A DNA stretch of 64,000 nt from Candidatus Kapaibacterium sp. (GTDB taxonomy: Bacteria > Bacteroidota > Ignavibacteria > Kapaibacteriales > UBA4661), in contig JALONG010000010.1 of the NCBI GenBank assembly GCA_025455065.1, positions 62,001-126,000 of the forward strand. The letters run 5' to 3'. Each line of letters begins with the position of its first letter. Positions within the stretch are counted from its first letter, which is position 1. This document shows positions 457 through 2,098 of this stretch, one piece after another. Below the pieces are notes generated by a model. It saw only the letters and a list, made by a program, of their open reading frames with translations. It was not told where the DNA came from and made no database searches. Made by a program: the position numbers and the translations under genes.

Positions 457-924
457 ATGAAATATATAGTTTGGTTGCTGCTCGCAGCGACAACACTTTT
501 TTGTAACGCTTGCTATACCGAACCCAATCCACTAAGCAGTGTGGCGACAGTTGGTGGTCCGATAGCACTGGTGCGGACATTTACCGTTACCAATCCCGCA
601 ACAAATACTCAGGTGAGCGCTTTAACAGCAGCGACGGCGACACCACTCACATTGACGGTCGCTTACACAACACTTGATGTACCTGTAACACAGGTGAATC
701 TTTACCGACAAATCGGAACAATGCGAACACAAGTTTCCACGGTGAGCGTGAATGTTGCGCCATCAATGAATCAAGTACGCCAAACGTTTACGTACACCAT
801 TCCTGCCGGAACAGCCGCAAATACACGGATATTCCTCATTGCAGGAGTTGTAACGGCAAATGGCGAATCGTTCTCCGGTAACGGAGTCTCAGGCGCGGGG
901 ACAGTTATTCTGACTTCGCGGTAA
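457..924 (+). CDS. Small secreted lipoprotein following the SusD gene
   Basis: 155 residues. The N-terminus MKYIVWLLLAATTLFCNAC is a short charged start, a hydrophobic core and a Cys at residue 19 that fits a loose lipoprotein box. The rest is rich in Thr, Ser, Val and Ala with alternating hydrophobics, as in an immunoglobulin-like or other beta-sandwich fold; I do not recognise a named family. It follows the SusD gene by 48 bases, so an accessory surface lipoprotein of that uptake locus is a reasonable inference. A diverged, 5'-truncated copy of its C-terminal half lies at 1741-2016, and both copies are followed by nearly identical terminators. Confidence 0.65.
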   Translation: MKYIVWLLLAATTLFCNACYTEPNPLSSVATVGGPIALVRTFTVTNPATNTQVSALTAATATPLTLTVAYTTLDVPVTQVNLYRQIGTMRTQVSTVSVNVAPSMNQVRQTFTYTIPAGTAANTRIFLIAGVVTANGESFSGNGVSGAGTVILTSR

Positions 925-1162: not shown

Positions 1163-1252
1163 AAATCTTGAGTCCAAATACATCAACACAAAATTCACAT
1201 AAAATTTGAGAAAAATAAGAAATAAATTGAAAATATCGTCAGGAGGAACTTT

Positions 1253-1291
1253 GTGCCGACATTTCTTGTTAAGAAAATGTCATCCATATAA
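1253..1291 (+). CDS. Twelve-codon micro-ORF overlapping a hairpin, upstream of the RiPP-like gene
   Basis: GTG at 1253 is preceded by AGGAGG at 1241-1246 and encodes VPTFLVKKMSSI before TAA. The coding bases contain an imperfect hairpin at 1258-1281 (GACATTTCTT, loop, AAGAAAATGTC). A short translated ORF overlapping a hairpin just upstream of a gene is how translational attenuators are built, so a regulatory leader for the gene at 1333 is possible, but this is inference from layout only. Confidence 0.25.
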   Translation: MPTFLVKKMSSI

Positions 1292-1332
1292 TTTCATTTA
1301 TTTCTATTCATATTTTTTTTACAGGAGTTGTT

Positions 1333-1659
1333 ATGTTAGAGCAAAAGCAAAAATTGCGTTTAGATGAGTTGAATATTGAAAGTTTTGTTACTGACACTAG
1401 TTCAGGCACTACCACTCGCACCTATAAGGGTGGCTACACAACATTTGAGTGGGGTGGGACAGGGCGTGCGAGTGGGGTGTCTTGGTGTGATTGTGTAAGT
1501 GATAATTGTTATGGCACTGAAGGCATTTATACACGACGTGCTGATTGCCAAAGTCAAGCATGGACATGTACATGCCCACCAATACCACCGAACCACACAC
1601 AGAATAATTGCACAATACACGGTCCTGGTTGTTATGATACAATTAATGAACCCTGCTAA
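1333..1659 (+). CDS. Cysteine-rich RiPP-like precursor peptide with pinensin-type leader
   Basis: 108 residues, ATG preceded by AGGAG at 1323-1327. The leader (1-21) contains KLRLDELNIESFVTD, matching the L-x-L-x-x-L-x-V/I-x-S-F-x-T pattern of pinensin-type lanthipeptide precursors from Bacteroidota and relatives. The Gly/Thr-rich middle (22-50) has a GG at 33-34 and another at 41-42. The C-terminal part holds nine cysteines (52, 54, 59, 72, 79, 81, 93, 100, 108) with many Ser/Thr, and the last residue is Cys. There is no Sec signal peptide. No lanthionine dehydratase, cyclase, protease or exporter gene lies nearby, so modification, if any, must come from elsewhere in the genome. Family assignment rests on the leader motif only; a disulfide-rich peptide is the main alternative. 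Confidence 0.65.
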   Translation: MLEQKQKLRLDELNIESFVTDTSSGTTTRTYKGGYTTFEWGGTGRASGVSWCDCVSDNCYGTEGIYTRRADCQSQAWTCTCPPIPPNHTQNNCTIHGPGCYDTINEPC

Positions 1660-1740: not shown

Positions 1741-2016
1741 ATTGTCGAATACACAACGCTCGAAGCGCCCGTTACGGCAGTAAATCTTTATATCCAAAGC
1801 TGTAGCACTCGTACTCGTGCGGTGAACGTTGCGCCCTCGCCCAATCGTGTGCGGCAAACCATTATGTACACCGTCCCCGCGACGGCAGCAGCAGGGTCAC
1901 GTATCGCCCTTGTTTCCGGTGTGGTAACGGCAAATGGTGAATCCTTCTCTGGGACAGGCGTTGTCTCCAGTGCAGGTGTGCCGACAGCAGGTGTCGCCGT
2001 CATCAACGTCCGATAA
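1741..2016 (+). pseudogene. 5'-truncated copy of the lipoprotein gene
   Basis: Frame +1 from 1741 reads YTTLEAPVTAVNLY, later NVAPSPNRVRQT and SGVVTANGESFSGTG, closely matching residues 70-145 of the lipoprotein at 457-924 (YTTLDVPVTQVNLY, NVAPSMNQVRQT, AGVVTANGESFSGNG). The frame is closed by a stop at 1687-1689 and no signal peptide or plausible start precedes the homologous part; GTG at 1822 would give only 64 residues. It therefore looks like the 3' remnant of a tandem duplicate, with the RiPP-like gene sitting between the two copies. About 12 residues longer at the C-terminus than its parent. Confidence 0.7.
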
Positions 2017-2044
2017 ACACTCGCTCGAAGAGCTTACAAACAAC

Positions 2045-2098
2045 AAACCGCCGCTCGAAACACCGTGTTTGCACGGTTTCAAGCGGCGGTTTTTTTTT
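2045..2098 (+). terminator. Second copy of the AAACCGCCGCTCGAAAC terminator
   Basis: Stem AAACCGCCGCTCGAAACACC with partner GGTTTCAAGCGGCGG, followed by nine T. It differs from the copy at 983-1034 by only a few bases and follows the truncated duplicate gene, so it was probably copied with it. Confidence 0.8.

Follow-up and report, generated by a model that had tools for sequence, protein, structure and literature searches.

Pinensins, class I lanthipeptides of Chitinophaga, belong to a family reported to have its LanB split and to use a LanC akin to the cyclase domains of LanM (PMC7268733). In that survey of >100,000 genomes, 10 precursors were named as an exception (PMC7268733). A second kind of known system bears on the promoter described below: in the meningococcus, porA varies through a G run between its promoter boxes (PMC3639595). 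A brief literature search returned no description of pinensin-type clusters in Kapabacteria. Here we analyzed a precursor gene with a pinensin-type leader in a 64-kb stretch of DNA (the window), which is part of contig C30 of a Kapabacteria genome (G000; 5.61 Mb, 99.5% complete, 131 contigs), and compared it with its sister genes in the same genome and with precursors and enzymes in members of the same genus.

The precursor gene and its insertion site

The gene and its parts are as follows.

1323..1329, + strand: ribosome binding site AGGAGTT, as in sister genes (AGGAG at 1323-1327)
1333..1659, + strand: pinensin-type lanthipeptide precursor gene, intact (108 aa, ATG start)
1333..1434, + strand: leader, residues 1-34, containing KLRLDELNIESFVT, its GG end being the predicted C39 cut site (NF038180 match at residues 6-23; GG column aligned)
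1435..1656, + strand: predicted core of 74 residues with 9 Cys and 14 Ser/Thr (residues after GG)

A sequence-only reading had described this open reading frame as a pinensin-type leader followed by a nine-cysteine core with Cys as its final residue, and both parts of the description were borne out. The NCBIfam model NF038180 (leader_pinensin) matches residues 6-23 with 24.1 bits (E 2.4e-5), a margin of only 0.1 bit over the curated cut-off of 24 bits. This narrow pass is strengthened by an aligned double glycine and by a motif confined to precursors. The leader ends in TYKGG. Its double glycine (residues 33-34) falls in the same alignment column as the GG of almost every relative and leaves a core of ~74 residues. 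The relaxed motif L.L..[LI].[VI].SF.[TI] has three matches in the six frames of 344 kb of the genome, and all three are precursor genes, the window gene included. The cysteines lie at residues 52, 54, 59, 72, 79, 81, 93, 100, and 108, so that the core, with its 14 Ser/Thr past the GG, contains both kinds of residue for thioether rings. The core is unlike every other core in this analysis, and cores vary freely in the pinensin-leader family. A Pfam search with the precursor returned no family, a scan of viral contigs found no relative, and a scan of genome contigs for relatives returned only two congeners, G007 and G001, both of which bear clusters. According to the sequence-only reading, homologs that kept the cysteines and lost the leader would have made this an ordinary disulfide-rich protein; we found the reverse, with the leader retained and the core variable among relatives. 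Judged from its sequence, the reading frame truly belongs to the pinensin leader family.

The gene lies inside a local duplication.

457..924, + strand: small lipoprotein-like gene after a SusD-like gene, present here in a single copy in relatives (comparison with relatives)
1744..2016, + strand: second copy of 457-924 with its 5' part missing, the precursor sitting between both copies (comparison with relatives)
2040..2098, + strand: second occurrence of the terminator-like inverted repeat of 977-1035, with which the duplication closes (blastn)

In the other genus members examined, no precursor was seen at this site and one copy of 457-924 follows the SusD-like gene. Because the duplication flanks the precursor and the site is empty in relatives, the precursor appears to have entered, or to have been kept, in this lineage with the local duplication.

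Sister precursors and their shared upstream element

A search for further precursors with the same leader, which had been proposed from the sequence alone, found four more in the genome: contigs C38 and C54 have one each, and contig C108 (4.1 kb) has two. Three of these four pass the NF038180 cut-off when scored as proteins; one of the C108 precursors falls under it (20.6 bits), yet it matches the others in leader, GG, and promoter. All five reading frames in G000 are intact, and shuffles of the same composition remain open in ≤0.6% of cases. The intact frames may reflect selection or a recent arrival instead of decay, and in this respect may count against reading these precursors as stranded. 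C108 terminates 49 bases past a precursor, and a cluster could therefore extend into unassembled DNA. We also noticed an erythromycin-esterase-like gene and an S41 peptidase beside the orphan precursors (L036, 7820-9223 of C54; L034, 1879-3600 of C108); both are distantly related (29-35%) to G007 cluster genes.

In four species of the genus, a 108-nt upstream element is common to eight precursors; it consists, in order, of TTTGGAAATG, G-rich stretch, TAnnTTTG, hairpin, and AGGAGTT, where TTTG...TAnnTTTG is the promoter and the G run lies in its spacer. Seven copies were found by pattern search and eight by a covariance model, all of them directly 5' of precursors, and the same two kinds of search found no copy in four genus members without precursors. 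In the hairpin, five pairs are changed on both sides, and its percentage of paired bases and covariation score exceed those of at least 499 of 500 shuffles and of all slid versions; in number of changed pairs it does not surpass the shuffles, and the set consists of only eight related sequences. Several copies fold no better than shuffles and those of C38 and C54 fold well. We therefore base the hairpin on the covariation together with these two well-folding copies.

Upstream of the window gene, we found the following features.

1223..1321, + strand: degenerate element copy (promoter and hairpin; G run interrupted, TTTG/TAnnTTTG pair lost) (covariance model R1)
1258..1281, + strand: inverted repeat GACATTTCTTGTTAAGAAAATGTC where the element has its hairpin (sequence, and alignment with the other copies)

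Model R1, which was built without the window sequence, gave its best match in the 64 kb at 1223-1321 (19.4 bits, E 0.032). This match ends 11 bases 5' of the ATG, implying that the window gene carries a decayed copy of the element. The single-strand fold of this upstream region is not telling: it has a z of -1.6, and the predicted minimum-energy fold leaves the repeat at 1258-1281 unused. No TTTG/TAnnTTTG pair is recognizable in the 250 bases 5' of the gene, and its expression is therefore unlikely.

For the promoter itself, we examined the spacing of the two boxes in 354 kb of G000. Of the 15 TTTG/TAnnTTTG pairs whose spacers measure 10-29, 7 are spaced by 20 bases, where shuffles give an expectation of 0.1 at 20, and from these sequences the promoter optimum in G000 is a 20-nt spacer. 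The spacers of the four intact sister copies, read from one assembly per species, are 18, 22, 22, and 22. G/C runs of at least 8 occur twice in the 354 kb, both times inside precursor promoter spacers, and four times over 612 kb of loci (from several species and partly redundant), three of them in precursor promoters. A homopolymer between the boxes and spacers scattered around the optimum are thus features of the four sister copies, not of the window copy. We infer that the sister spacers of 18 and 22, which are within slippage reach of 20, would make these promoters weak or off and that slipped-strand mispairing would switch them. What is novel is the promoter variant with the G run; the window gene itself adds one more member to a known family.

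Maturation enzymes in the genome and its relatives

The sequence-only reading had found no lanthipeptide enzyme in the window; this holds, and it extends to the remaining genome. Neither the LanB N-terminal part, nor the LanB elimination domain, nor LanC was detected in the G000 assembly, and PF04738, PF14028, and PF05147, which score strongly in G007 and G001, have no match in G000. A full-length LanB query gave a single weak match in G000 at chance level (E 0.004). This match, on C88, has one internal stop and unrelated gene surroundings and was not reproduced by local tblastn, and we rejected it as chance. The window precursor has a GG leader end, and the sole C39 transporter of G000, on C61, is of another kind, being 27% identical to the transporter of the G007 cluster. 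This identity and its own GG peptide nearby make it unlikely to be the cognate exporter. In this locus (L102, 6786-14324 of C61), a separate bacteriocin-like system, the C39-ABC transporter has ABC genes and a short GG peptide (MKELNFEQMALMQGG...) as neighbors. The earlier proposal that the precursor may be processed in trans therefore found no support within this genome, where searches for LanB, the elimination domain, LanC, and the cognate transporter all came up empty. The split LanB and the LanC by which a pinensin-type system is recognized are present in G007 and G001 and undetected in G000, so we speak of a stranded precursor rather than of a pinensin system.

Complete systems are found in the two congeners. 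In G007, the 23-42 kb region of contig C44 (L038, L039) contains 17 precursors in one class I cluster. The cluster also includes LanC and the LanB elimination domain, a C39-ABC transporter, a LytTR regulator, and genes for an S41 peptidase and an erythromycin-esterase-like protein. The LanB N-terminal protein is encoded on a separate contig, C21, where it adjoins S41-like genes. G001 owns the same parts in small pieces (81% identity for LanC, 99% for C39, and 94-98% for LanB), with enzymes and precursors located on contigs of 3-9 kb. The best NCBIfam match of the LanC of this genus is the LanM model. The precursor cores differ widely, but C-terminal blocks recur in the G007 cluster (PTMAQTPIPCWE/CYV, GQFICM, and SQFCEC), a pattern which suggests core shuffling.

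Several further features of these loci were observed. Tandem repeats of ~21 bases (TTTTGCCTACGTTCACTCC), followed by a second promoter type, TATTGTTTTGC-GGGGG-TAGTTTTG, stand ahead of many precursors on C44 of G007 and on the small contigs of G001, and such repeats may break assemblies. At 3028-3480 of L041 (G001, C68), the natural ATG of a precursor is out of frame with the leader after an A run, owing to a frameshift, a sequencing error, or slippage. Short broken pieces of a second LanB, 71-72% identical, lie at contig ends in G007 (C21, 45-167; C44, 48937-49053). In G148, which is of another family in the same class, L046 (C12) has two Cys-rich precursors, at 41 and 2478, with a similar leader and without a GG site.

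Interpretation and comparison with known systems

The identification of the gene as a pinensin-type precursor agrees with the profile match, the GG site, the four further precursors, the same-genus clusters with split LanB, LanC, and C39 transporter, and the common upstream element. Going by the enzymes of G007 and G001 and by the known family, in relatives with the whole system the split LanB would read the leader motif, one protein glutamylating Ser/Thr and the second eliminating; LanC would then join Cys to the dehydrated residues, and the ABC transporter with its C39 peptidase would cleave behind the Gly-Gly and secrete the product. In G000, where these enzymes are undetectable, the five dispersed precursors would be stranded, as remnants or as a dormant reserve of a peptide repertoire that lost its machinery or never received it, and we predict silence for the window copy, whose G run and two promoter boxes are gone. 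From these sequence comparisons, we therefore favor as the most likely explanation that the gene is a genuine but stranded, and probably silent, pinensin-type precursor.

A less probable explanation, which we still take seriously, is that G000 owns the machinery in DNA missing from the assembly or dropped in binning, and that the window precursor is processed in trans in the manner of prochlorosins; such processing is possible only if the enzymes sit in unassembled DNA. The assembly has 131 contigs, C108 is just 4.1 kb and ends right after a precursor, the enzymes and precursors of G001 are on similarly short contigs (3-9 kb), there is precedent for dispersed precursors whose LanM lies far away (PMC7268733), and the reading frames have stayed open. 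However, the genome is 99.5% complete, the window copy has no recognizable promoter pair, and, while the parts in G007 occupy two contigs (C21 and C44), G000 would have to miss three enzyme families as well as the cognate C39 transporter. It is improbable that the product is no longer a lanthipeptide and is cut after the GG and exported unmodified, for example by the C61 transporter, as a disulfide-rich secreted peptide: the GG site, the presence of one C39-ABC transporter in the genome, and the nine cysteines would fit, but that transporter is only 27% identical to that of the cluster and has its own GG peptide nearby, and relatives retain the leader, not the Cys pattern. A chance reading frame resembling the leader, to which the profile score of just 0.1 bit over the cut-off might point, is scarcely credible and already contradicted, because the GG site, Cys-rich core, ribosome binding site, and upstream element are all in register and the relaxed motif occurs elsewhere in the 344 kb only at two further precursors.

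If the gene is a stranded precursor, as we favor, the enzyme-free genome offers a natural case of the fate of RiPP precursors when their machinery is absent. The spacer G run, if it slips, would be a simple means of varying the modified peptide produced by a cell. We speculate, with considerable doubt, that this genus keeps scattered hypervariable precursors behind randomly G-slipping promoters, so that different cells offer different peptides, and that its enzyme-less species carry a dormant stock that becomes reusable once machinery is acquired.

Compared with known systems, the leader motif, the split LanB in the genus, and the LanM-related LanC are as in the Chitinophaga pinensins (NF038180; family I 17 in PMC7268733). 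The free core lengths and Cys patterns, the up to 17 precursors per cluster, the G-run promoter, and the enzyme-less precursors of G000 appear to set the present genes apart from them. The 17-precursor class I cluster of G007 also exceeds the 10 precursors of the earlier survey (PMC7268733). The double-glycine leader end and the C39 ABC transporter in the cluster are shared with the Bacteroidetes class I LanAs that have GG leaders and C39 proteases; those have an LxLxKx5L leader (PMC7268733), whereas the leader here is of the pinensin type. As in the class II prochlorosins, one leader type is joined to many different cores and precursors are dispersed over the genome, but the enzymes in this genus are of class I and G000 has none that we could detect. 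Finally, as in the porA promoter of Neisseria meningitidis (PMC3639595), a G run between two boxes sets the spacer length, while the boxes here are of the Bacteroidota type (TTTG/TAnnTTTG), the gene encodes a lanthipeptide precursor and not a porin, and switching by length is, for this promoter, only inferred.
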